Assembly: GCF_003410055.1 (NCBI RefSeq)
Contig: NZ_QUZK01000032.1
Span: forward strand, 1 to 47,807
Length of the DNA: 47,807 nt
Origin: Wenzhouxiangella sediminis
GTDB taxonomy: Bacteria; Pseudomonadota; Gammaproteobacteria; Xanthomonadales; Wenzhouxiangellaceae
Direction of reading: 5' to 3'
Below, piece by piece: positions 28,248-40,697 of this stretch. The position numbers were made by a program, and so were the translations under genes. Each line of letters opens with the position of its first letter. Positions within the stretch are counted from its first letter, which is position 1. A model generated the notes under the pieces. The model saw only the letters and a program-made list of their open reading frames with translations, was not told the DNA's origin and did not search any database.

Positions 28248-30086
28248 ATGGACGGCGGCCTGAATCTCAGCGGCGACATGATACTGGTGCTGATGCTGCT
28301 GGGGCTGACTGTCACGCTTTTCGTCACCGAACTGGTCCGCCTCGACGTTGCAGCGATCTGCATCATGGTGTTGGTCGGATTGCTCGGCCTGATCCCCGGT
28401 GATCAACTCTTCTCGGGCTTTGCCTCCAACGCCGTCATCGCCATCATCGCCGTGATGATCCTCGGCGCCGGTCTCGATCGCACCGGTGTGATGAACGTGG
28501 TCTCATCCTTCATCGTCAAGATGGGCGGGCCCTCCGAGTCGCGGATTCGATCGATGCTCTCGGCCACCGTCGGGGTCACCTCCAGCTTCATGCAGAACGT
28601 CGGAGCGACGGCGTTGTTCATGCCCGTGGTCAGCCGCATTTCGGCGCGGCTGGACATGCCGCTGTCGCGCCTGCTCATGCCGATGGGGTTCTGCGCCATC
28701 GTGGGCGGCACGCTGACCATGGTCGGTTCCTCGCCGCTGATCCTTCTCAACGATCTGATCGATACGTCCAACCGGTCGCTTCCGCCCGGCGCCGAGGCCA
28801 TGCAGCCGTTCCAGTTGTTCGACGTCACGCTGGTGGGCCTGGGGCTGCTGGCGAGCACGCTGATCTACTTCCTGGTCGCAGGGCCCGCCTTGCTGCCGAA
28901 GACCGAGGAGAAGAAGCCGGCTTCTCCCGGACGCACCAAGAGTTACTTCAAGGAGGTCTACGGCATCGAGGGCGACATCTACGAGATGCTCGTGACCGTC
29001 GATTCTCCGCTGGTGGGCATGCGCATTGCCGAGGCCGAGAATCTCGATGGGGCGCCTTTGATGCTGGCCATCCAGAACACCGACCAGCCTCGCCTGGCCC
29101 CGCCGGCCGGGGAGATGATCTGGGTGGGCACGGTGTTGGGCGTGATGGGAACGCGCGAACAAGTCGGCGAGTTCGCCCTGGCGAACAATCTGCGGCTCCA
29201 GCCGCGGCTGAGAACGTTCGGCAGCCTGTTCAATCCGACCCGCGCCGGTATTTCCGAGGTGGTCATACCGCCGGGTTCTCGCCTGATCGGCCAGACCATC
29301 GGTGAGGCCCGCCTGCGCTCTCGTTTCGGCATCTCGGTGCTGGCCATCAATCGCCGCAACGAAATCATCACCCACGACCTGCGCGAGGAAGTGCTGCAGG
29401 TCGGCGACTGTCTGGTCAGCCACTCGACCTGGCGGGACCTGGCCAACCTCGCCCGCGACAAGGACTTCATCGTCGCCACGGATATCCCCAAGGAAGAACA
29501 GCGGCCGCAGAAAGTCGTGCATGCGGTCAGCTTTTTCGGCCTGAGCCTGTTCCTGATCCTGTTCACGGACTTCGAGTTGTCGGTGGCCCTGATGGCGGGC
29601 GCCATCGGGATGGTTCTGACCGGTGTGCTGAGTATGGACGAGGCGTATCAGGCGGTCAGCTGGAAAACCGTCTTTCTCATGGCCGGTCTGATTCCGCTCG
29701 GTGTGGCCATGGAGGTGACCGGCACCGCGGCCTGGCTGGCGCAGCAGGTGCTCGGACTGCTCGGCGATGTGCCGCAGCTGGTCGTGCAGCTGGTGCTGGC
29801 GACGATGGCCACGCTATTCACCCTGGTGATGTCCAATGTCGGCGCCACCGTGCTGCTGGTGCCGATCGCCATCAATATCGCCCTGGCCACCGGCGGCAAC
29901 CCGGCCGTCTATGCGCTGCTGATCGCGCTGGCCACATCCAACGCTTTCATCCTGCCCACACATCCGGTCAATGCACTCATCATGGGGCCGGGGGGCTACA
30001 AGGTGAAGGACTTCGTTCGCGTTGGCGGCATCATGAGCGTCATCTACATGACGGTCATGCTGTTCGGCCTCAATCTCGTTTTCTGA
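28248..30086 (+). CDS. SLC13-family permease with two TrkA-C (RCK-C) domains
   Basis: A 612-residue membrane transporter. N-terminal helices include ILVLMLLGLTVTLFVTELV and the conserved GVTSSFMQNVGATALFMPV and GGTLTMVGSSPLILLNDL motifs. Two cytoplasmic TrkA-C-like modules lie at about residues 235-300 (VDSPLVGMRIAEAENL) and 325-390 (VIPPGSRLIGQTIGEARLRSRFGISVLAI). A second membrane half has MSNVGATVLLVPIAINIALA and LPTHPVNALIMGPGGY. Relatives carry dicarboxylates, sulfate or other anions with Na+, and the RCK-C modules imply ligand gating. The substrate is not predictable. It ends 7 bases before a convergent binding-protein gene. Confidence 0.9.
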   Translation: MDGGLNLSGDMILVLMLLGLTVTLFVTELVRLDVAAICIMVLVGLLGLIPGDQLFSGFASNAVIAIIAVMILGAGLDRTGVMNVVSSFIVKMGGPSESRIRSMLSATVGVTSSFMQNVGATALFMPVVSRISARLDMPLSRLLMPMGFCAIVGGTLTMVGSSPLILLNDLIDTSNRSLPPGAEAMQPFQLFDVTLVGLGLLASTLIYFLVAGPALLPKTEEKKPASPGRTKSYFKEVYGIEGDIYEMLVTVDSPLVGMRIAEAENLDGAPLMLAIQNTDQPRLAPPAGEMIWVGTVLGVMGTREQVGEFALANNLRLQPRLRTFGSLFNPTRAGISEVVIPPGSRLIGQTIGEARLRSRFGISVLAINRRNEIITHDLREEVLQVGDCLVSHSTWRDLANLARDKDFIVATDIPKEEQRPQKVVHAVSFFGLSLFLILFTDFELSVALMAGAIGMVLTGVLSMDEAYQAVSWKTVFLMAGLIPLGVAMEVTGTAAWLAQQVLGLLGDVPQLVVQLVLATMATLFTLVMSNVGATVLLVPIAINIALATGGNPAVYALLIALATSNAFILPTHPVNALIMGPGGYKVKDFVRVGGIMSVIYMTVMLFGLNLVF

Positions 30087-31022: not shown

Positions 31023-31367
31023 TTATGCTGGGTCGGTTGCGAAAATGCGTCCTTCGGATTCGCCGACGTCGATCTCTCGAAGGGCGGCGTTCTTGCAGGG
31101 GCCGGCGACGCAAACGCCGCTGTCCGGGTCGAAGACCGCGCCATGATGGGCGCAGACGAGCCGGTTTTCATCGTCGCTGAGGAAGCGGTCGGGCGCGAAG
31201 TTGAGCGGCCGGCCCTGGTGGGGGCAGAGGTTGAGCCAGGCGCGTGGACGTCCGCCGCGCCGGGTGACGATCAACCAGGCGGGCTGGGCGTCCAGTTCGA
31301 GCTGGAATTCTCGGTACTGGCCCTCGGCCAGTTCGTCGGCGGGGCACAGGAACACTGGTTCATTCAC
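31023..31367 (-). CDS. Small Rieske [2Fe-2S] domain protein
   Basis: A single-domain Rieske protein of about 114 residues. The ligands are Cys48-x-His50 (LNLCPHQGRPLNF) and Cys72-x-x-His75 (LVCAHHGAVFDPDSG), spaced as in ferredoxin components of oxygenases or nirD-like proteins. A CVAGPCKNAAL segment follows. Such small soluble Rieske proteins are electron carriers or oxygenase accessories, but no oxygenase is nearby. The start is uncertain: GTG at 31367 (MNEPVFLC) fits the domain, and a TTG at 31385 or so is possible. It is divergent from a small membrane protein, with about 15 bases between. Confidence 0.82.
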   Translation of the reverse strand: MNEPVFLCPADELAEGQYREFQLELDAQPAWLIVTRRGGRPRAWLNLCPHQGRPLNFAPDRFLSDDENRLVCAHHGAVFDPDSGVCVAGPCKNAALREIDVGESEGRIFATDPA

Positions 31368-31382
31368 GGGGTCAGACAGTAC

Positions 31383-31649
31383 ATGCAAGATCCATGGCAA
31401 AGATTCTATCAGCCGCCGGCGAGTCCGCTGGCGCGTTTCGGGCTGGTTCTCCTCGGAATCGGCGTTCTCGCCCTGAGCTTCCTTCTCGGCCTCGTTTTCC
31501 TGGCCGTGGCCGTCGGCATGGCCGTGATCGGCTTCATCGTGCTGACGGTTCGCCGCTGGCTTGGTCGCTCGGGCTCGGGCAAGCGCGACGACGGCCTGGT
31601 CGACGTGGAGTACCGCGTGGTGCACCGCGAACGCAACGACCGGGAGTGA
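31383..31649 (+). CDS. Small membrane protein, unknown function
   Basis: An 88-residue protein. It starts MQDPWQRFYQPPASPLARFG, then has a double hydrophobic segment (LVLLGIGVLALSFLLGLVFLAVAVGMAVIGFIVLTV) long enough for two short helices, and a basic cytoplasmic tail RRWLGRSGSGKRDD ending in EYRVVHRERNDRE. The N-terminal and tail features are common in small gammaproteobacterial inner-membrane proteins of unknown role. The open frame upstream of 31383 lies in the Rieske gene on the other strand, so I chose this ATG. It is convergent with the last antiporter gene. Confidence 0.65.
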   Translation: MQDPWQRFYQPPASPLARFGLVLLGIGVLALSFLLGLVFLAVAVGMAVIGFIVLTVRRWLGRSGSGKRDDGLVDVEYRVVHRERNDRE

Positions 31650-31685: not shown

Positions 31686-33371
31686 TCAGCCCCGGCTGAA
31701 GGCCATCAACACGATCACCGCCAGCAGGACCGCCATCCAGATCGCCATCTGTCCCATCGGGCTTCGGCTCGAGAAGAATCGGTAGGACTGCACGCGAACT
31801 TGCGTGATGGCCCGGCTTCCACCCGAAAGCACCGCTTCGATCGTGCGATCCCTGGCGCTGGCAAGCGAACGATCGATGAATCCGGCAATCTTCGGGATCA
31901 TCCGTCGATAGAAATAATCGAAGTCGAGCGTGATGGTGAGCGTGCGCTTCATCATCGGCAACATCACGAAGAATGCCAGGCCGGCGAACAGCAGCAGTTG
32001 CAGCTGGCTGAGTACGTGATCGGGCGTGTACGGCTTGTAATCGACCGGGTAGGGCAGCAGCGAATACAGCAGCCCCGGGAAGACGCCGAGCCCGATGCAG
32101 ATGATCGAAAAGAAGATCATGGCCGCCCGCATGTTCCAGGGTGCTTCGGGCGGCCGCAGGCCCGAGTCCTTCTGGAAGAATACGAACCACGGGAACTTGA
32201 TGCCCGCATGCAGGAATACGCCGGCCGACGCGGCGACCAGCAGGTACCAGACCAGCGCCATGTGCTCGTAGGCCGCGCCCGAGGAGATCATGGACTTCGA
32301 AATGAAGCCCGAGGTCCAGGGGAAGGCCGAGATCGCCAGTGCGCCGATCGTGCCGCACACGGTCGTCAGCGGCATGGTGCGGAACAGTCCGCCGAGGTTG
32401 GAGCACTTGCGCACGCCGGTCTGGTAGAGCACCGCGCCGGCGCTCATGAACAGCAGGCCCTTGTAGATGATGTGGGCGAAGGCGTGCGCCGCCGCGCCGT
32501 TGAGCGCCAGCTCGGTGCCGATGCCCACGCCGACGACCATAAAGCCGACCTGGTTGACGATCGAATAGCTGAGAATACGCCGCATGTCGTTTTCAAGCAG
32601 CGCCCAGATGATGCCGTAGAAGATCATGATCAGGCCCAGCCAGACCAGCAGCTCGGTGCCCGGGAAGAGCATGATCAGGGCCAGGACCGCGGTCTTGGTC
32701 GTGAAGGCCGACAGGAACACCCCGCCCATGGGGCTGGATTCGGGGTAGGCATCGGCCAGCCAGACGCTGATCGGCGGTGCGGCGGCATTGATCAGCACGC
32801 CGATGAAGATCATCCAGGTGTCGAAGTTGCCCAGGGTCAGGGCGCGGATCTCGGGTGAGCCGGTGTGGATGATCAGGCCCTCGATGCCGATCTTGAGGAC
32901 GATGCCGCCGACCAGGTGGATGATGGCGTAGCGGATGCCGGCCGCGCGGGCTCGCTCGGTTCCCCCGCACCAGACCACGACGGTCGAGAACAGGGCCATC
33001 AGTTCCCAGAACAGGAACATCACGATCAGGTCGCCGGCGAAACTCACGCCGATCGCGCCGGCGGCGTACATCAGGGCCGCGGAGAGCTCCCACCATTTCG
33101 ATTGCCGGAAGGCGAACAGCGCCCCGCCGAAGCCCATGATGGCGAACACCGTGGCGAACAGGCGCCGGAGGTCGCTGCCTTCAACGAATTGCACCTCGTA
33201 ACCCAGGAAGGTGGCGGTCAGCTGCACGCCGTCGGGCACCTGCCAGATGGCGTAGAGCGTGATCAGCGGCGTGGCCAGGGCGATCAGGGGCCGCAGGGCC
33301 GGCCGCGCGACACCGATCAGCACCGCGCCGGCAATCATCAGTATGGCCGGTGGCAAGATGAACTCAAACAT
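31686..33371 (-). CDS. Third antiporter-like subunit of Mrp complex (NuoL/MrpD-like)
   Basis: A 561-residue member of the proton-translocating Mrp/complex I antiporter-like family with about 14 helices. The transmembrane glutamate is kept as Glu123 (FLFWELMALFST) and Lys226 (AFTTKTAVL) is kept. However, the mid-membrane Lys expected in GxxxKxxxxPxHxWL is replaced: here the segment reads GVLINAAAPPISVWLADAY with Asn195. The C-terminus carries an extension (LDFDYFYRRMIPKIAGFIDRSL) and a last helix (MAIWMAVLLAVIVLMAF), resembling NuoL or MbhH more than MrpD. It is the last gene of the operon, with its start overlapping the previous gene by 8 bases. Confidence 0.9.
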   Translation of the reverse strand: MFEFILPPAILMIAGAVLIGVARPALRPLIALATPLITLYAIWQVPDGVQLTATFLGYEVQFVEGSDLRRLFATVFAIMGFGGALFAFRQSKWWELSAALMYAAGAIGVSFAGDLIVMFLFWELMALFSTVVVWCGGTERARAAGIRYAIIHLVGGIVLKIGIEGLIIHTGSPEIRALTLGNFDTWMIFIGVLINAAAPPISVWLADAYPESSPMGGVFLSAFTTKTAVLALIMLFPGTELLVWLGLIMIFYGIIWALLENDMRRILSYSIVNQVGFMVVGVGIGTELALNGAAAHAFAHIIYKGLLFMSAGAVLYQTGVRKCSNLGGLFRTMPLTTVCGTIGALAISAFPWTSGFISKSMISSGAAYEHMALVWYLLVAASAGVFLHAGIKFPWFVFFQKDSGLRPPEAPWNMRAAMIFFSIICIGLGVFPGLLYSLLPYPVDYKPYTPDHVLSQLQLLLFAGLAFFVMLPMMKRTLTITLDFDYFYRRMIPKIAGFIDRSLASARDRTIEAVLSGGSRAITQVRVQSYRFFSSRSPMGQMAIWMAVLLAVIVLMAFSRG

Positions 33372-33711
33372 CCTTGCCGCCCTCCTCGGTCCGGACCTTG
33401 TCGGTCAGCTGGCTGGGCGCCAGCTCGGTTTCGCGGAAGTAGTAATCGTCCGGCCGCTTGAGCAGGAAGCCGAGCAGCTTGGCGCCCACGACCATGCCCA
33501 CGCAGGTCAGGAAGCCGTAGAGCGCGTAGAAGCCGAACCAGCCGTCCACCCCGAAGTAGGTATGGAAATGAACGAAGAACTGGCCGGCTACCGTCAGCGC
33601 CAGGATGGCGCCGAAGATCCACCAAAGCAGTCGAATGGTCTTCGGGCGGACCAGCCAGTGGTCGTGATCGGGCTGCTTTTCCGGGTTCTGCGGAAGGGGC
33701 GACTGGCTCAT
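33364..33711 (-). CDS. Small membrane protein inside the Mrp-like operon
   Basis: A 115-residue protein with a charged N-terminus (SQSPLPQNPEKQPDHDHWLVRPK), helix LLWWIFGAILALTVAGQFFV, and a second helix FYALYGFLTCVGMVVGAKLLGFLL. A polar tail, KRPDDYYFRETELAPSQLTDKVRTEEGGKDV, follows. It overlaps the upstream antiporter gene by 4 bases and the downstream one by 8 bases, so it is translated with them. No Mrp subunit from the classic A-G set matches it, and I do not recognise the family. It is a candidate accessory subunit of the complex. Confidence 0.85.
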   Translation of the reverse strand: MSQSPLPQNPEKQPDHDHWLVRPKTIRLLWWIFGAILALTVAGQFFVHFHTYFGVDGWFGFYALYGFLTCVGMVVGAKLLGFLLKRPDDYYFRETELAPSQLTDKVRTEEGGKDV

Positions 33712-35174
33712 TGGCCCACCTCCAGGATGCGCGATTCGATGTCCACGATCGGTCCGTTGAATGCGAAGAACAGGATGACCAGGGCGGCGGTGAAGGTCAG
33801 CGCCGCAACCATCGGCCAGGGCGCCTCGCCGTGCTCGACCTTGGGCGGCACGTCTTCGTCGCGGAAGAAGGCGCGGAAGACGATGGGCAGGAAGTAGGCC
33901 GCGTTCAGCCCGGTCGAGAGCATCAGGACCACCAGGGTGAAGTAGTTGTCGACCTGGAAGGCGCCGGCGATGATGTACCACTTGGACACGAAGCCGGCGG
34001 TGGGCGGCACGCCGATCATCGACACCGCCCCGATGGTGAAGGCCACCATGGTCCATGGCATGCGTCGCCCGATGCCGCGTATTTCGTCCAGCCGGGTTTT
34101 CTTGGAGGCGACGTAAATGGCCCCGGCACAGAAGAACAGGGTGATCTTGCCGAAAGCGTGCGCCACGATGTGGACGGCCGCGCCGATTTCGGCGAACGGC
34201 GCCAGCACCAGCGCGGCCAGCACGATGTAGCTGAGCTGGCTGATCGTCGAGTAGGCCAGCATGCGCTTGAGCTCGACCTGCTTGAGCGCGATGATCGAGG
34301 CGGCGACGACGGTGAAGCCGGCGAGGTAGACGAGCCACTGTTCCAGCGGCACGTTGGCCAGGAAGTCCAGCCCGAAGATGTAGATGACGACCTTGGTGAT
34401 GGTGAACACGCCGGCCTTGACGACGGCCACCGCGTGCAGCAGGGCCGAAACGGGGGTCGGCGCGACCATGGCGGCCGGCAGCCAGCGGTGCATGGGCATG
34501 ACCGCCGCCTTGCCGATCCCCAGAACGAACAGGGTCAGCAGGATGGCCGCCTCGGTCGGCCCGAGCGTGCCGAACAGGATACCGCCCGGCGTGAAGTCGG
34601 TGGTGCCGGCGGCCATCCAGGTCCAGATGATGGCCGGCAGCAGCAGGCCGATCGACGTGAACAGGAGGATCCCGAGGTAAGTACGGCCGCCGGCCCGGGC
34701 GGCATCGTTCTGCTTGTGCGTGACCAGCGGCCAGGTGCTGATGGTCAGTACTTCGTAGAAGATGAACAGGGTCAGCAGGTTGCCGGCCGTGGCCACGCCC
34801 ATCGCGCCGCTGATGGCGATGGCGAAGAAGACGTAGAAGGACGTGTGCCGTGGCTCTTTCGCGCCGCGCATGTAGCCGATGGCATAGACCGAGGTAACGA
34901 ACCACAGCAGGCTCGCCAGCAGGGCGAAGATCAGGCCCAGCGGTTCGAGCCGGAAGGTGATGGCCAGCCCGGGCAGGATCTCGATCACTTCCAGGGCCAC
35001 GTCGTAGCGGTTGACCACCGGACCGATGAGCTGCGTGGCCAGGCCGAACAGCGTGGCGGCGGTGACCAGCGTCGCGGTCTCCCTCAGGTTGGGCCAGCGG
35101 CCGAGCAGGCCGACGGCGAGTGCGCCGAGCAATGGGGTGACGATGAGCGCGACGATCAGCATGGCCGGACTCAT
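33708..35174 (-). CDS. Second MrpD-like antiporter subunit
   Basis: A 488-residue antiporter-like membrane protein. Key residues of the family are present: Glu141 (LFIFYEVLTIST), Lys222 (GIGKAAVMPMHRWLPAAMVAPTPVSALLHA), His247 and Lys253 (AVVKAGVF), and a later AFGKITLFFCAGA lysine. These are the residues that carry protons or ions through MrpA/MrpD and NuoL/M/N. The open frame extends upstream to 35273 within the neighbouring gene, but the ATG at 35174 gives the family N-terminus and a 4-base overlap with the gene before. It is more NuoL/MrpA-like in its PTPVSALLHA motif than the subunit encoded just upstream. Confidence 0.92.
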   Translation of the reverse strand: MSPAMLIVALIVTPLLGALAVGLLGRWPNLRETATLVTAATLFGLATQLIGPVVNRYDVALEVIEILPGLAITFRLEPLGLIFALLASLLWFVTSVYAIGYMRGAKEPRHTSFYVFFAIAISGAMGVATAGNLLTLFIFYEVLTISTWPLVTHKQNDAARAGGRTYLGILLFTSIGLLLPAIIWTWMAAGTTDFTPGGILFGTLGPTEAAILLTLFVLGIGKAAVMPMHRWLPAAMVAPTPVSALLHAVAVVKAGVFTITKVVIYIFGLDFLANVPLEQWLVYLAGFTVVAASIIALKQVELKRMLAYSTISQLSYIVLAALVLAPFAEIGAAVHIVAHAFGKITLFFCAGAIYVASKKTRLDEIRGIGRRMPWTMVAFTIGAVSMIGVPPTAGFVSKWYIIAGAFQVDNYFTLVVLMLSTGLNAAYFLPIVFRAFFRDEDVPPKVEHGEAPWPMVAALTFTAALVILFFAFNGPIVDIESRILEVGQ

Positions 35175-36643
35175 GGCGAGCCTCCCATCAGCATTTCGGC
35201 GCCGCGGCGGGCGACGTCGACGGTCAGGCGGGTATCGATCCCGAAGTAGAAATTGGCCGCGACGAGAATCCACATCGGCACGAGCAGACCCGGATGCGCC
35301 TCGCGAACGGGTTCACGCCCCTCGGGCGCGGGTCGGAGCCAGGCCGCTTCGGCGACCTTGCCGATATACATGACGGCCAGCAGCGAACCGACCAGGACGA
35401 CGACCACGGCAAACCAGTTCCCGTCTGCCATGGCGGTTTCGATCAGCAGCCACTTACTGATGAAGCCCACCGTCAGCGGCACGCCGATCAGGCTCAGGCC
35501 GGCCAACACGAACGCCAGCATCGTCAGGGGCATCTGGCGGCCCAGGCCGCGGAAGGCGCTGATATGCGGCGAGCCCACCTGGTAGATCACGGTGCACACG
35601 CTCATGAACAGGGCCGCCTTCATCAGGGCGTGGTTGAACATATGCACCAGCCCGGCGCTGATGCCGGCCACGGAAACGAAGCTGATCGCCAGCGCCATGT
35701 AGCCGACCTGGGCGACGCTGGAGTAGGCCAGCAGCCGCTTGGCGTTGTCCTGCTCGATCGCCCAGATCGAGGCGAACAGGATGCCGATGACGCCGAGCAC
35801 GAAGAACACCTCGGCAAACGGCATCTGTCGGACGAACTCTATGCCGAAGACCGTGAAGACCAGCCGCAGCAGCACGTAGATGGCGACCTTGGTGGCCGTC
35901 GAGGCCAGGAACACGGTCACGGCCGACGGCGCGTTGGCATAGGCGCCGGGCAGCCAGCGGTGCAGCGGGAACAGCGCGAGTTTCAGGCCGATGCCGACGA
36001 TGATGAAGGCGAAGGCGGCCTGCACGGCCCGACTGTCGGCCACGGCCGGCAGGCGTTCGGCCAGGTCGACCATGTTGAGCGTGCCGGTCATGATGTAGAT
36101 CAGGCCGATGCCGATCAGGTAGAAGGTCGCGCCCAGCGTGCCCATCACCAGGTAGCGGAAGGCCGACAGCGGCGCGGCCCGGCTGCGGCCCTGGGCGACC
36201 AGCACGTAGGTCGACAGCGAGGAAATCTCGAGGAAGACGAAGACGTTGAAGGCGTCGCCGGTCAGCGTGATGCCCATCAGGCCGGCGAAGGAAAGCAGGA
36301 ACAGCGCGTAGAACAGGCCCTGCCGCTGCGGCACCTCGCGGTTCACGCTGATGCGTCCCCAGGGCAGGATCACGGTGCCCATCACCGCGATCAGCAGCCC
36401 GATGAAGGCGTTGACCGCGTCGACGCGGTATTCGATGCCGATCGGCGGCGGCCAGTCGCCGAAAAAGTAGCGCATCGGCTCGTTGACCGCCTCGGGCAGC
36501 ACGAAGGCCATGATGACCGCGGAGGCGGTGACGCTGGCCATGGCCAGCAGCCAGGGCAGGAATCGGCCGGGCAGCAGGGCGCAGACCGGCGCGGCGAGCA
36601 GCGGCAGCAGCACGCTGAACGGCATCCACTCGAGAATGCTCAT
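35171..36643 (-). CDS. mnhD: Na+/H+ antiporter subunit D (MrpD/MnhD)
   Basis: A 490-residue MrpD-type subunit with about 14 helices. Conserved features include Glu139 in FVFLEISSLSTYVLVA, Lys221 in GLKLALFPLHRWLPGAYANAPS, Lys252 in STATKVAIYVL, and Lys in HALMKAALFMSVC. The PLHRWLPGAYANAPSAVT string is typical of MrpD and distinguishes it from the two other paralogues in the operon. It follows mnhC with a 4-base overlap, the usual C-D order. It forms part of the membrane proton/cation antiporter complex. Confidence 0.94.
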   Translation of the reverse strand: MSILEWMPFSVLLPLLAAPVCALLPGRFLPWLLAMASVTASAVIMAFVLPEAVNEPMRYFFGDWPPPIGIEYRVDAVNAFIGLLIAVMGTVILPWGRISVNREVPQRQGLFYALFLLSFAGLMGITLTGDAFNVFVFLEISSLSTYVLVAQGRSRAAPLSAFRYLVMGTLGATFYLIGIGLIYIMTGTLNMVDLAERLPAVADSRAVQAAFAFIIVGIGLKLALFPLHRWLPGAYANAPSAVTVFLASTATKVAIYVLLRLVFTVFGIEFVRQMPFAEVFFVLGVIGILFASIWAIEQDNAKRLLAYSSVAQVGYMALAISFVSVAGISAGLVHMFNHALMKAALFMSVCTVIYQVGSPHISAFRGLGRQMPLTMLAFVLAGLSLIGVPLTVGFISKWLLIETAMADGNWFAVVVVLVGSLLAVMYIGKVAEAAWLRPAPEGREPVREAHPGLLVPMWILVAANFYFGIDTRLTVDVARRGAEMLMGGSP

Positions 36644-37002
36644 GTGTGGGGCTCCCCGTCCTCTTCCTCGGTGAGCTGGTCGTCCTGGATGCTGCCGTAG
36701 TTCTCGCGCACCCGCACCGCCAGGGCCAGGCCGACGGCGGTCGTCGCCACGCCGACGACGATGGCGGTCAGGATCAGTACGTGCGGCAGGGGGTTGGAAT
36801 AGAGATCGACGCCTTTCTCGAGCACCGGCGAGGAAGCGCCGATGATCTTGCCCGCCGAGATGAACAGGATGAACACCGAAGTCTGGAAGATATTCAGCCC
36901 GATGATGATCTTGACCATGTTGCCGCGCGCAATGACGGCATAGAAGCCGGTCATCATCAGGAAGATCACGACCCAGTAGTTGAAATGGCCCAGCCAGTCC
37001 AT
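36640..37002 (-). CDS. mnhC: Na+/H+ antiporter subunit C (MrpC, NuoK-like)
   Basis: A 120-residue NuoK-like subunit with three helices: NYWVVIFLMMTGFYAVIARG, MVKIIIGLNIFQTSVFILFISAG and LPHVLILTAIVVGVATTAVGLALAVRVRENYG. The KIIIGLNIFQTSV and LTAIVVGVATTAVGLAL motifs are characteristic of MrpC. Its start shares one base with the end of mnhB, and its end overlaps mnhD by 4 bases. It is an essential membrane-arm piece of the Mrp complex. Confidence 0.95.
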   Translation of the reverse strand: MDWLGHFNYWVVIFLMMTGFYAVIARGNMVKIIIGLNIFQTSVFILFISAGKIIGASSPVLEKGVDLYSNPLPHVLILTAIVVGVATTAVGLALAVRVRENYGSIQDDQLTEEEDGEPHT

Positions 37003-37454
37003 CAGTCGATCTCCTCCCGGGTCAGGTCCGCCACGACCCGCAGCCGGTCCGCGAACAGGGTGTAAATGAGCATCACCACCGCGGCCACCGTGATGCCGAC
37101 GCCGAGTTCGACGAGCACGATGCCGGCTTGCTGGGCCCCCTGTGGCGAGCCCGGGATGAGGGGCGTGAATTCGAGGAACTGGCCGCCCAGGACCACGCCG
37201 AGCACGCCGATGGTCGCGTAGAGCATGACGCCGATGCTCGCCAGGACCTTCTGGGCGCCGGCCGGCACAACCGCCAGGGCTTCGTCGAGGCCGAACACCA
37301 GCGCGAACAGGATCCAGGCGGCGGCGAAAATCACCCCGGCCTGGAAGCCGCCGCCGGGCGAGTACTCACCGTGGAACTGGATGTAGAGCGCGAACAGCAT
37401 GATCAGCGGGATCAGGAACCGCGTGACGACGCGCAGGATGCCGTTGGTCTTCAT
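37002..37454 (-). CDS. mnhB: Na+/H+ antiporter subunit B (MrpB)
   Basis: A 150-residue MrpB. The signature HGEYSPGGGFQAGVIFAAAWIL lies near residue 28-49, and other helices are VLASIGVMLYATIGVLGVVLGG and GIVLVELGVGITVAAVVMLIYTLF. Mrp B subunits lie between the A C-terminal domains and C. Here B follows the DUF4040/MbhE-like gene with a 4-base ATGA overlap and precedes C with a 1-base overlap, which preserves that order. Confidence 0.95.
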   Translation of the reverse strand: MKTNGILRVVTRFLIPLIMLFALYIQFHGEYSPGGGFQAGVIFAAAWILFALVFGLDEALAVVPAGAQKVLASIGVMLYATIGVLGVVLGGQFLEFTPLIPGSPQGAQQAGIVLVELGVGITVAAVVMLIYTLFADRLRVVADLTREEID

Positions 37455-38014
37455 TCGGTCTCTTCCCCTTCGATCGGCTCATCGGCCGGCTGGCGCCGGC
37501 GTCTGCGGGTCGCCCCGAGCAGCATCATCACGCCGATGCCGGCGGTGAAGATCACGTAGACCTCGCCGAGCGTATCGATTGAGCGGTAGCTGGCCAGTAC
37601 CGAGGCGACGACGTTGGGAATGCCGATGTCCTTGTAGGACTCCTCGAGATAGTAAGGCGCGACATGCTGGTGAATCGGGTTCTCGGCCGCGCCGAAGGGC
37701 GGCAGGTCCCAGGTCGCATAGACGAGCGTGGCGCCGGTGACGAGTACCACCACCAGCGCGGTGAGGTTGCGGCCCCGACCGCGATCCTCGTGGCGCGGCG
37801 CCAGCGACAGGGCCACCAGCATCAGGATGGTCGAGATGCCGGCGCCAACGGCCGCTTCGGTCAGGGCGACGTCGCCGGCATCGAGCACGGCGAACAGGGA
37901 GGCCGACACCAGCGAATAGATGGCGAACAACATGACCGCGGCGAACAGGTCGCGCATGCGCAGCACGGCGACCGCCACGATTGCCAGGAAGGCCAGCAGC
38001 GTGAGATCGATCAG
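37451..38014 (-). CDS. MrpA C-terminal-like subunit (DUF4040/MbhD plus MbhE)
   Basis: About 187 residues matching only the C-terminal part of MrpA. The MbhD-like half shows MRDLFAAVMLFAIYSLVSASLFAVLDAGDVALTEAAVGAGISTILMLVAL. The MbhE-like half shows NVVASVLASYRSIDTLGEVYVIFTAGIGVMMLL. The first in-frame GTG (37978) would cut off residues LIDLTLLAFLAI that belong to the first helix. No ATG, GTG or TTG lies upstream in frame before mnhG, but a CTG at 38014 overlaps the mnhG TGA in a CTGA, matching the ATGA overlaps elsewhere in the operon. I therefore propose a CTG start. The NuoL-like N-terminal part of MrpA is absent. Confidence 0.85.
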   Translation of the reverse strand: MIDLTLLAFLAIVAVAVLRMRDLFAAVMLFAIYSLVSASLFAVLDAGDVALTEAAVGAGISTILMLVALSLAPRHEDRGRGRNLTALVVVLVTGATLVYATWDLPPFGAAENPIHQHVAPYYLEESYKDIGIPNVVASVLASYRSIDTLGEVYVIFTAGIGVMMLLGATRRRRRQPADEPIEGEETE

Positions 38015-38325
38015 TTGTTCGATGACTGCTCTCCTTCGGGTTTGAGACCGTCGGTCAGGGCGGCGCGCGCCAGGGCATGCGAAGCCGTCGGCGAGGTAAA
38101 CAACAGGAAAAGCAGGATCAGGGCCAGCTTGATCGACAGCAGGGAAAGTCCGGCCTGCAGGATGAGTCCGGCGATGATCATCAGGGCACAGAGCGTGTCC
38201 GTCATACCGGCCGCGTGCAGCCTCGAATAGAAATCGGGAAAGCGCAGCAGGCCCACGCCGCCGAGAATGCCGACCAGCCCGCCGCCGAGCAGCAGGAACC
38301 AGCTGAGCACGTCGACGACGATCAT
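38011..38325 (-). CDS. mnhG: Na+/H+ antiporter subunit G (MrpG)
   Basis: A 104-residue MrpG. It has the family segment GGVGLLRFPDFYSRLHAAGMTDTLCALMIIAGLIL and a following helix (SIKLALILLFLLFTSPTASHALARAA). The LRFPDFYSRLHAAG and TSPTASHALARAA strings are diagnostic. The ATG at 38325 overlaps the mnhF stop by 4 bases. Its TGA is overlapped by the proposed CTG of the next gene. Confidence 0.95.
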   Translation of the reverse strand: MIVVDVLSWFLLLGGGLVGILGGVGLLRFPDFYSRLHAAGMTDTLCALMIIAGLILQAGLSLLSIKLALILLFLLFTSPTASHALARAALTDGLKPEGEQSSNN

Positions 38326-38606
38326 GGTTCTTCCCCTTCCCGGCCGATCTCTTCGGGGCGCTGAAGGCGGACGAGCTTGAGCACCGCGATAATTGCGATG
38401 AAATTGATCAGGGCGTAGACCAGCGCAATGTCGATGAACAGGTCGTGGCCCATCACGAAGCTGATGAGCGCGACCAGGAGCACGGTCTTGGTGCCGAAGA
38501 CGTTCACGGCCACGATGCGGTCCCAGACGGTGGGGCCGAGCAGGGCGCGGGCCAGGGCCAGGGCCATCGTGGCCAGCATGGTCAATGCTGCCAGGGTGTA
38601 GATCAC
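38322..38606 (-). CDS. mnhF: Na+/H+ antiporter subunit F (MrpF)
   Basis: A 94-residue MrpF with three helices: YTLAALTMLATMALALARALLG, VLLVALISFVMGHDLFIDIALVYALINFIAIIAVLKL, and the diagnostic GPTVWDRIVAVNVFGTKTVLLVAL between them. The overlaps with mnhE (4 bases) and mnhG (4 bases) place it in the fixed E-F-G order. A short charged tail (RLQRPEEIGREGEEP) follows. Confidence 0.95.
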   Translation of the reverse strand: MIYTLAALTMLATMALALARALLGPTVWDRIVAVNVFGTKTVLLVALISFVMGHDLFIDIALVYALINFIAIIAVLKLVRLQRPEEIGREGEEP

Positions 38607-39082
38607 TTGGATTGGTCCTCCAGCCAGCAGACACGGTCGCCCATCTCGCCCGACAGCACGCCTTCGGCGCCTGCCCGGGTCAGGGCGTGAACCACGATTT
38701 CATTACCTTCGAGCCGCAGGCTGACGGTGCCGGGTGTGAGCGTGATCGAATTGGCGTAAGTCACCCGCGTGAGTTCGCGCGATTGCTTCGCCGGCACCCT
38801 CAGCACCCGCTGGTGGATGTGGCCGCGCGGATTGAAGACCGCCCTGGCCACGTCGAGATTCGCGACGACGATCTGCCACACCAGCCAGGCCCAGTAGACA
38901 GGCAGGCGCCACGAGAACAGGCCCGGGTTGTGTTCGACGCCGATGACGTCCATGCGCCAGGACAGCCAGGCCGCCAGCGCGACGGAGGCGACGCCGAGCG
39001 CGAGGATGACGGGCTTGAACAGGCCCGACAGTCCCAGCCAGAGTGCGGCCATCACCAGGGCCAGTGAGATCACGTAACGCAT
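38603..39082 (-). CDS. mnhE: Na+/H+ antiporter subunit E (MrpE)
   Basis: A 159-residue MrpE, first gene of the operon. N-terminal helices (YVISLALVMAALWLGLSGLF, VILALGVASVALAAWLSWRM) precede the conserved YWAWLVWQIVVANLDVARAVF. The soluble C-terminus shows YANSITLTPGTVSLRLEGNEIVVHALT, typical of MrpE. Its start lies 10 bases after a TAATAT -10 element, with no Shine-Dalgarno. In canonical operons mrpE lies after D; here E-F-G lead the operon instead. Confidence 0.94.
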   Translation of the reverse strand: MRYVISLALVMAALWLGLSGLFKPVILALGVASVALAAWLSWRMDVIGVEHNPGLFSWRLPVYWAWLVWQIVVANLDVARAVFNPRGHIHQRVLRVPAKQSRELTRVTYANSITLTPGTVSLRLEGNEIVVHALTRAGAEGVLSGEMGDRVCWLEDQSK

Positions 39083-39151: not shown

Positions 39152-40633
39152 CTACAGGTAAGGGCTGAAAAGCCAGCAGGCGGCATCCCTCAGCCGCGCC
39201 GGGAGCGATCGGCCGTCGACCTCGTCGAGGCGCAACTCCCTGCCGGCCGCGGCAGCCGCGTCGATCCGTTCGGACAGGCTGCCGGCGAGCGTCGCGTCGT
39301 AGGCCTCGACCTGCAGTTCGAAGTTCAGCCTCAGGCTGCGCGGGTCCCAGTTGGCCGAACCCACCAGGCTGTAGAAATCGTCGACGACGAAGAGTTTGCC
39401 GTGGTTGAACGGCGCCGGCTGCAGGCTCACACGCACACCGCGGAAGAGCATTTCCCACAGCATGTTGCGCGTCGCCCAGTCCACGAAGCGAAGATTGCTC
39501 TTTTCGGGAAGCACGATGTGAACGTCGATACCGCGCACCGCCGCCGCCTGCAGGGCGCCGATGAGCTCGCGCGGCGGCAGGAAATAGGGCGTCATGATCC
39601 GGATCGAGTGCCGGGCGCTGGCGATCGCCGCCGACAGCAGCATCGTCATGCGATCGAGGTCCTCGTCGGGACCGTCGGTGAGGGTCCGGCAGATCACCTC
39701 GTCGTGGCCGGTCTCGACGGTCGGGCGATAGCGCACGATCTCGCTGGTGGCGAACTCCCAGGTGCGGTAGAACTCCAGCGCGAGCTGCCCCACCACGGGC
39801 CCCCTGAGCCGAAAGTGCACATCGGCCGTCGGCCTGGCCTTGCCGGACTTTTCGACGCAGTGTCGGTCGCTGATGTTCATGCCGCCGGTGAAACCGATCC
39901 GGTCGTCGACGACCAGGATCTTGTGGTGGTTGCGCAGGTTGATCGACATCGAGGGCGGCAGCAGGCCCGGCGGCAGGAAGCGCGCCGTGCGCACGCCGGC
40001 CTTGCGCAGACGGTGGCCGGCGCGCGGCCGCGAATACCATTCGCCGACGCCGTCGATGAGCACGCGCACGTCCACGCCGCGCGCAACCGCCGCGGCGAGG
40101 GCACGGCAGAAGGCCTGTCCCGTCTCGTCCTGATCGAGGATGTAGGTGGTCAGGCAGATATGGTCGCGGGCGGCTTCGATGGCCTCGAGCATGGCCGGGT
40201 AGGCCTGTTCGCCGTTGTACAACGGCTCCACGCGGTTGCCGCCCACCAGGGCGTGCCGGCTCAGCGCCCGGCCGCTGCGGGCCAGTTCGGTGAAAGCCTC
40301 GGGCAAGTCCTCCGGCAGGGGGTGGAGGCGGCTGACCGCCTGCCCCCGCTCTCCCGATCGCAGGGGAGGCATGGCGAAACGCTGGGCCCGGTTGCGCGTG
40401 CGATTGACGCCGAAGAACAGGTACAGCACCGGCCCGGCCACCGGCGCGACCACGCACACGGCGATCCACCCGAACGCCCCGCGCGGCTCCCGCTTGTAGA
40501 GCAGGGCATGAATCGCCGTGGCCGGTGCGAGCACCGCATGGAACAGCAGCAGGATGAAAGTCTCCGGGCTCAGTTCGCTGACCTTTTCCGAGGGCCTGCC
40601 GCCATGATACGTGTCGATCGGGACTTCGCGCAT
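39152..40633 (-). CDS. cls: Cardiolipin synthase (phospholipase D superfamily)
   Basis: A 493-residue ClsA-type enzyme that makes cardiolipin from two phosphatidylglycerols at the inner membrane. Two N-terminal membrane segments (TFILLLFHAVLAPATAIHALL and GWIAVCVVAPVAGPVLYLFFG) precede two HKD motifs. The first is HHKILVVDDRIGFTGGMNI at about residues 234-252, and the second NHGKLFVVDDFYSLVGSANWDPRS at about 408-431. I prefer the ATG at 40633 (MREVPIDTYHG); the frame also begins upstream at a TTG (40675). It is divergent from the second kinase gene. Cardiolipin supply next to a large membrane complex operon is suggestive only. Confidence 0.93.
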   Translation of the reverse strand: MREVPIDTYHGGRPSEKVSELSPETFILLLFHAVLAPATAIHALLYKREPRGAFGWIAVCVVAPVAGPVLYLFFGVNRTRNRAQRFAMPPLRSGERGQAVSRLHPLPEDLPEAFTELARSGRALSRHALVGGNRVEPLYNGEQAYPAMLEAIEAARDHICLTTYILDQDETGQAFCRALAAAVARGVDVRVLIDGVGEWYSRPRAGHRLRKAGVRTARFLPPGLLPPSMSINLRNHHKILVVDDRIGFTGGMNISDRHCVEKSGKARPTADVHFRLRGPVVGQLALEFYRTWEFATSEIVRYRPTVETGHDEVICRTLTDGPDEDLDRMTMLLSAAIASARHSIRIMTPYFLPPRELIGALQAAAVRGIDVHIVLPEKSNLRFVDWATRNMLWEMLFRGVRVSLQPAPFNHGKLFVVDDFYSLVGSANWDPRSLRLNFELQVEAYDATLAGSLSERIDAAAAAGRELRLDEVDGRSLPARLRDAACWLFSPYL

Positions 40634-40657
40634 GGGTCGGCTCGTTGCGGCATCTGG

Positions 40658-40663
40658 TATAAG
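40658..40663 (+). promoter_or_regulatory. Possible -10 element of the second kinase gene
   Basis: TATAAG in the cls-kinase divergent gap, 34 bases before the kinase ATG chosen here. Its complement contains CTTATA, so the same AT-rich patch may also serve cls. No good -35 was seen for either direction. Confidence 0.3.
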
Positions 40664-40697
40664 AGCAGGCTCCAACCATTCCCGGCCCCGTGGGCCA

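Follow-up and report, generated by a model that had tools for sequence, protein, structure and literature searches.

Mrp antiporters without MrpA are a described class. Group 3 of these systems has been defined by the absence of mrpA together with one or more mrpD (PMC8415708), and the name is used here in that sense; a review gives an alternative definition, in which each subunit is present but in an irregular order (PMC5703873). The stand-alone Mrp of Pyrococcus furiosus has a single D subunit and an MrpB which is a fusion of MbhD and MbhE (PMC8415708). In the Group 3 cluster of Candidatus Nitrospira alkalitolerans, the extra genes were judged by the authors to be mrpA/mrpD-like (PMC7784846). 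MrpD-like subunits are also reported in complex I: two of them replace NuoL in the rhizobial green complex I (cited in PMC9040806), and two occur with two NuoM in the Manganitrophaceae complex, the MrpD2 of which carries a C-terminal amphipathic helix (PMC9040806). The present work concerned a ten-gene operon of the Mrp type from Wenzhouxiangella sediminis, located on a stretch of 47,807 nucleotides (contig NZ_QUZK01000032.1), hereafter the window. The ten frames, at positions 31686-39082, were all intact and on the minus strand, in the order E-F-G-(MbhD-MbhE fusion)-B-C-D1-D2-small-D3 read in the initial annotation of this DNA, and families could be assigned for nine of them (Table 1).

The initial annotation had regarded this locus as a divergent Mrp. 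Novelty at this level must be abandoned, as the mrpA-less Group 3 is already defined in print (PMC8415708). By its gene content, the operon is a member of the published Group 3 class (PMC8415708; PMC7784846): no mrpA was found in the 54-contig draft, and mrpD copies stand together with E, F, G, B and C, in line with the definition of PMC8415708. With respect to the definition of PMC5703873, the gene order is irregular, yet MrpA is present only as its C-terminal part. The operon shares with mrpEFGBB'CD of P. furiosus the absence of mrpA and the order E-F-G-(MbhD+MbhE fusion)-B-C-D (PMC8415708), but has D2, the small protein and D3 in addition. In the Group 3 cluster of Ca. Nitrospira alkalitolerans, as in the window, mrpD is followed by two genes resembling NuoM/NuoL; this likeness is one of description only, and the account in PMC7784846, in the parts available, counts the genes as mrpA-G and mentions no small gene. 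Canonical Mrp of Groups 1 and 2 has E, F, G, B, C and D in common with the window, as well as the residues of E, F and G and of the C-terminal part of MrpA that have been tested by mutation, but possesses a single MrpA, where the window has a separate C-terminal gene, and D2 plus D3 for the N-terminal part. Among solved structures, five subunits (C, D1, D3, E and F) were best matched by a P. furiosus MBS chain and B by an MBH chain, which bears out the earlier remark that the composition is closer to Mbh/Mbs arms; G was closest to a Bacillus Mrp chain, the fusion to canonical MrpA, and D2 to a photosynthetic complex I chain. In the literature consulted, no biochemical study of precisely these ten genes was seen.

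The absence of a full-length mrpA, as initially proposed, was confirmed in the assembly with four models (PF00361, MrpA, MrpE and MnhB). Neither mrpA nor a second Mrp was found in this draft of 54 contigs, which is 99.79% complete by the tool's figure; a missing stretch is possible because of this fragmentation. PF00361 detected six proteins in the genome, three in the operon, in agreement with the three antiporter-like subunits (three Proton_antipo_M proteins) first counted there, and three together on another contig, C9. The MrpE and MnhB models gave one genome match each, both in the operon, and the top score of the MrpA model was 304 bits, on C9, for a cut-off of 1104 bits. The hallmark of Groups 1 and 2, an MrpA in which the NuoL-like part is fused to the MbhD/MbhE part, was thus not found here. 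When the present genome and others of its genus and order were taken together (31 in all), MrpA was over the cut-off in 4 and D3 in 17.

In a tree of 68 rows (66 different), obtained by a quick search and with a long NuoL row and weak deepest forks, D1 formed one group (support 96) and joined the D proteins that stand beside three MrpA genes (83), i.e., canonical MrpD, while D2 (100) and D3 (100) formed separate groups. MrpA joined NuoL (95), and neither D2 nor D3 lay within the MrpA-NuoL group, which argues against an MrpA simply cut in two; as judged from this tree, the N-terminal half of MrpA seems to have been replaced by two other subunits. The antiporter-like pair of Sinorhizobium meliloti was placed inside the D2 and D3 groups, as expected of an orthologous pair. 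On pSymA, these genes stand in the order nuoJ-nuoK-D2-small-D3-nuoM-nuoN, nuoL not being among the 16 features shown. The S. meliloti pair is thus tied to complex I genes, whereas the window operon is without nuo genes. Because the D2 and D3 clades also hold this NuoL-replacing pair, D2-small-D3 looks like a portable module, replacing here the NuoL-like half of MrpA.

The residues of the proton path distinguished D3 from D1 and D2. In the window, D1 and D2 have the glutamate of transmembrane helix 5 (TM5) and the lysines of TM7, TM8 and TM12, and D3 has an asparagine at TM7. Across relatives, TM8 Lys and TM12 Lys were found in every D1, D2 and D3 row, and TM5 Glu in 87/87 D1, 100/100 D2 and 119/120 D3 rows (one gap). 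TM7 Lys was found in 87/87 D1 and 100/100 D2 rows; of the 120 D3 rows, 104 had Asn and 16 had Lys at this position. Five D3 rows duplicate the same places, and 100 Asn and 15 Lys are counted without them; the reference rows own_C9c and MrpA_G416 were disregarded in this alignment. The S. meliloti D3 also has Asn at TM7. In a D3 tree of 42 rows from which the TM7 column had been removed, the 12 Lys-type rows formed one group (99), nested among Asn rows. In Bacillus pseudofirmus Mrp, replacement of MrpA-K223 or MrpD-K219 by Ala abolishes antiport, while the complex still assembles (PMC5703873), and the Glu140/Lys223 pair has been described as strictly conserved (PMC9568556).

The subunits expected to handle the cation were well conserved at positions where changes lowered or abolished antiport in B. 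pseudofirmus, namely T113-P114 (MrpE), D32-R33 (MrpF), P81 (MrpG) and R773/E780 (MrpA) (PMC5703873). Each of these residues has an identical counterpart in the window. The MrpE site had Pro in 90/90 and Thr in 83/90 rows of relatives, the MrpF site D in 87/90 and R in 89/90, and the counterpart of MrpG P81 was Pro in 86/91. In the fusion, the Glu aligned with MbhD E69 is kept (82/95 rows, 6 of the remainder being gaps), as are an Arg and a Glu at the R773/E780 spacing (94/95 rows each). Residue numbers in E, F and G were counted along the 7qru chains aligned with them, and R773/E780 were located by their spacing in 7d3u_A.

D3 was also singled out by its predicted structure. The model (pLDDT 91) contains a helix of 48 residues (485-532) followed by a terminal one (539-560), and is less certain at the link 528-540 and in the stretch preceding the long helix. 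Its best structural match was MrpA of B. pseudofirmus (7qru_A, TMq 0.80); the top ranks were mostly MrpA and NuoL-type chains, followed by D-/M-type chains (TMq 0.67-0.72). The long lateral helix and the MrpA/NuoL-type matches fit, and D3 would thus have the architecture of an outermost subunit, able to clamp the row of subunits as the lateral helix does in NuoL and MrpA. A C-terminal amphipathic helix is likewise a feature of the MrpD2 described in PMC9040806. After the lateral-helix motif, the window D3 has a tail of 79 residues, versus 104 in three loci with the S. meliloti-like arrangement (L037-L039). As a ruler of the subunits spanned, this length gave overlapping values: 102-104 residues in the four complex-I-type loci, and a median of 80, up to 130, in full-order loci (the motif being recognizable in 58 of these 83).

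The protein encoded between D2 and D3 had no match in Pfam or NCBIfam. Its model is a two-helix hairpin of moderate confidence (pLDDT 75.7), for which no structural match was found in the PDB at E <= 10, and its S. meliloti counterpart is annotated "hypothetical protein." The gene nevertheless accompanies D3 with constancy, as a small frame precedes D3 in 114 of 115 loci. The gene was recovered by tblastn in 107 of these; in seven of the eight misses (L037, L140, L142, L144, L145, L146 and L164), a similarly patterned small frame runs up to the D3 start, and the eighth, L099, has an upstream sequence of 47 bases only.

Recurrence of this arrangement was evaluated with the D3 model NCBIfam PRK12668 against 398 genomes of the phylum. 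The family was over the cut-off in 21 of them, own included, after which scores fell from 645 to 275 bits. This gap is not absolute, as two genomes of the same genus (L161 in G407 and L165 in G403) hold D3 relatives at 407 and 382 bits; these score between the D3 family and other antiporter-like proteins, have an E gene alongside, and were left out of the counts. Of the 23 places where D3 exceeded the cut-off, 19 were analyzed, plus one below it; the four left out were two in G081 and G220, a third on a short G169 contig, and the window itself. Fifteen of the 19 survey loci had the complete order, three had D2-small-D3 between nuoK and nuoM, and one had D2-small-D3 alone. A scan of named genomes, from which the best 80 loci were retained by their similarity to the window, and a set of 15 loci of relatives completed the sample.

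The full order was present in 83 of the 115 distinct loci, window included (60/80 in the named-genome scan, 15/19 in the survey, 7/15 in relatives, and the window). The other 32 comprised 21 with a short upstream sequence, four of complex-I type, three partial, two with the trio alone, and two with all genes in an order that was not accepted. In the latter two (L112 and L121), the script misordered the genes since the fusion frame ran upstream over G; by match position, E to D3 are ordered as elsewhere, with an extra G upstream in L121, and both stay outside the 83. Because 80 loci were picked by likeness to the window, both the Asn and the full-order counts lean to its type. Full-order loci were titled Alpha-, Beta- and Gammaproteobacteria, Thermodesulfobacteriota, Nitrospirota (the full ten-gene order in L132 and L135), Planctomycetota, Myxococcota and Deferribacterota, many being metagenome assemblies. 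Complex-I contexts were identified by nuoN, by reading frames, and by the S. meliloti annotation; in one Nitrospiraceae locus, D2-small-D3 precedes nuoM- and nuoN-like frames.

Several loci showed other arrangements. In L047 and L084, D2-small-D3 occurs with no other Mrp gene within the stretch examined, the neighbors of L047 being recognized by eye as flagellar genes. L092 and L100 have C-D1-D2-small-D3, with a nuoN-like gene upstream and no E, F, G, B or fusion in the stretch examined. In the same genus, L159 (G414:C15) is a second Mrp-like cluster with four consecutive antiporter-like proteins, the last frame having 895 residues and a long C-terminal part, and L158 (G415:C1) is a further one with three antiporter-like frames and MrpE/MrpF look-alikes by eye, in a genome that also carries the window-type operon.

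With regard to mechanism, we consider it rather likely that this Group 3, MrpA-less Mrp is a monovalent cation/H+ antiporter driven by the proton motive force, in which D2-small-D3 would replace the NuoL-like half of MrpA and two standard proton routes would operate. The complex would most likely exchange protons for sodium or a similar ion. On the basis of homology and of the residues kept, E, F, G, B and the MbhD-MbhE fusion would form the cation-translocating part, and C and D1 would be the equivalents of MrpC and MrpD. D2-small-D3 would take over the role of the NuoL-like half of MrpA, D2 acting as a second full proton channel and D3, from its predicted fold, as the outermost subunit whose long lateral helix would clamp the row, in an order which we infer. 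Two standard proton routes (D1 and D2), as in canonical Mrp, are most likely because D3 is without the TM7 lysine; D3 probably does not use the standard route, and may be structural, gating, or conducting by another route.

Some observations weigh against this reading. D3 retains TM5 Glu (Glu123), TM8 Lys and TM12 Lys, and may therefore conduct protons after all; moreover, the TM7 lysine is present in one D3 clade. In MrpC, Gln40 and Phe44 occupy the His/Asp site near the proposed Na+ site, a site discussed for Na+ binding in solved complexes (PMC7419157), and relatives have Gln in 91/99 and Phe in 63/99 rows at these positions; since the His/Asp of this site is replaced, the ion may not be Na+. 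Moreover, His and Ala replace Q70 and G82 of B. pseudofirmus MrpC, where other substitutions harm the complex or its activity (PMC5703873). These departures may tell against plain Na+ exchange, although the positions are not class-defining. Support at the deepest forks of the subunit tree is weak, and the length of the D3 tail does not track context cleanly.

A bolder proposal, which we hold as tentative and on balance doubtful, is that D2-small-D3 would be an exchangeable drive unit of both Mrp and complex I, with a lysine-less D3 (Asn in most lineages) serving as a gate or as the route of another ion, and the small protein as its dedicated partner. Less probable still, and in our view unlikely, is the existence of three working proton channels, each of D1, D2 and D3 conducting, with more protons per cation than in canonical Mrp. 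The near-complete conservation of TM5 Glu (119/120, one gap), TM8 Lys and TM12 Lys (120/120) in D3 and the lysine of one D3 clade are consistent with it, as is the proposal of extra ions from extra subunits for complex I variants (PMC9040806); the Asn found at TM7 in the window D3 and in 104/120 rows opposes it, given that Ala at the corresponding K223 (MrpA) or K219 (MrpD) abolishes antiport in a complex which still forms (PMC5703873). The three antiporter-like subunits of the initial annotation stand, but its three channels and altered stoichiometry are weakened by the absence from the window D3 of this lysine, essential in MrpA and MrpD. That D2-small-D3 is an independent transporter, merely sharing an operon with a minimal EFGBB'CD complex of the P. 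furiosus type, appears very unlikely: the trio was without other Mrp genes in 2/115 loci (L047 and L084) and the stand-alone Mrp of P. furiosus has one D (PMC8415708), but the genes overlap, the trio adjoins Mrp genes in the 83 full-order loci, and it occupies the place of NuoL in complex I operons. Most improbable is a membrane arm of an MBH-, MBS- or complex I-like redox enzyme with catalytic subunits encoded elsewhere, since, despite the MBS or MBH chains closest to several subunits and the presence of D2-small-D3 within rhizobial nuo operons and, in one Nitrospiraceae locus, before nuoM-/nuoN-like frames, the eight flanking proteins tested included none recognizable as a hydrogenase or a catalytic Nuo subunit (the remaining genome being unsearched for hydrogenase), so that the operon differs from P. 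furiosus MBH and MBS by having no adjoining redox module, and three further NuoL/M/N-type proteins lie together on C9. An MrpA-less antiporter with two standard proton routes is thus the reading retained here.

At the level of gene structure, every junction among the ten genes overlaps by 1-8 bases, provided that the fourth gene begins at 38014. The models over Pfam cut-offs were MNHE, MrpF, PhaG, MbhD+MbhE, MnhB, Oxidored_q2 and three Proton_antipo_M, for nine of the ten proteins; NCBIfam models matched below their cut-off for E, F, D1 and D2, and over it for the other assigned proteins (G, B, C, D3 and the fusion). The separate 187-residue protein initially equated with the C-terminal domains of MrpA was indeed an MbhD-MbhE fusion gene, but no conventional start exists at the site which would give about 187 residues (ATG, GTG and TTG being absent); a CTG at 38014 stands there instead, within the overlap with the G stop codon. 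Initiation at GTG 37978, the first of the conventional codons, would give 175 residues and trim the first helix. The fourth-gene frames of L049, L083 and L157 are likewise without a conventional start at the corresponding place, and CTG 38014 is most likely the start.

Table 1. Genes of the Mrp-type operon, in operon order (positions in the window).
Feature	Position	Strand	Evidence
MrpE, 159 residues	38603..39082	-	Pfam MNHE 1e-25; Thr-Pro of the B. pseudofirmus MrpE T113-P114 site kept
MrpF, 94 residues, GTG start	38322..38606	-	Pfam MrpF_PhaF 9e-16; Asp-Arg of B. pseudofirmus MrpF D32-R33 kept
MrpG, 104 residues	38011..38325	-	Pfam PhaG 4e-25; NCBIfam TIGR01300 over cut-off; B. pseudofirmus MrpG P81 kept
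MbhD-MbhE fusion, corresponding to the C-terminal domain of MrpA (P. furiosus-type MrpB), start codon uncertain	37451..38014	-	NCBIfam PRK12504 over cut-off; Pfam MbhD, MbhE
MnhB/MrpB, 150 residues	37002..37454	-	Pfam MnhB 3e-28; NCBIfam PRK12508 over cut-off
MrpC/NuoK-like, 120 residues	36640..37002	-	NCBIfam PRK07375.2-3 and PRK07375.1-6 over cut-off; best solved match MBS chain 6u8y_G
D1, putative MrpD equivalent, 490 residues	35171..36643	-	Proton_antipo_M 1e-63; clade joins D of MrpA-bearing clusters
D2, NuoL-like D subunit, 488 residues	33708..35174	-	Proton_antipo_M 1e-55; own clade including the S. meliloti counterpart
Small two-helix membrane protein (predicted), 115 residues, between D2 and D3	33364..33711	-	Alignments; predicted hairpin; conserved frame before D3
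D3, lateral-helix D subunit, 561 residues, TM7 Lys replaced by Asn195	31686..33371	-	NCBIfam PRK12668 668 bits (cut-off 564)

A gene for a PLD-domain protein (39155-40675) lies directly upstream of mrpE, and a CitMHS/TrkA-C permease gene (28248-30083) downstream of the operon; both recur by the operon in loci of the same genus, e.g., L157, L161 and L165, with the PLD gene in reversed orientation in L157. Directly downstream of D3, a frame with a Rieske domain (31026-31625) has an uncertain start position. Besides the Rieske-domain protein, a permease and a PLD-type protein, two kinases and a solute-binding protein are among the eight flanking proteins tested.

No paper on the TM7 asparagine of D3 or on the small gene was found among titles and openings of abstracts, most subscription papers lying outside this search. 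With no priority claimed, what this work adds is that the Mrp and complex I versions share one three-gene module, including the small gene, and that D3 displays a widespread change at TM7. The question of what an extra antiporter-like subunit brings applies to both Mrp and complex I, and the D2-small-D3 family offers natural versions of one module in two machines. The presumed proton-carrying residue is naturally replaced in its D3, and the Lys-type and Asn-type D3 permit a direct comparison.

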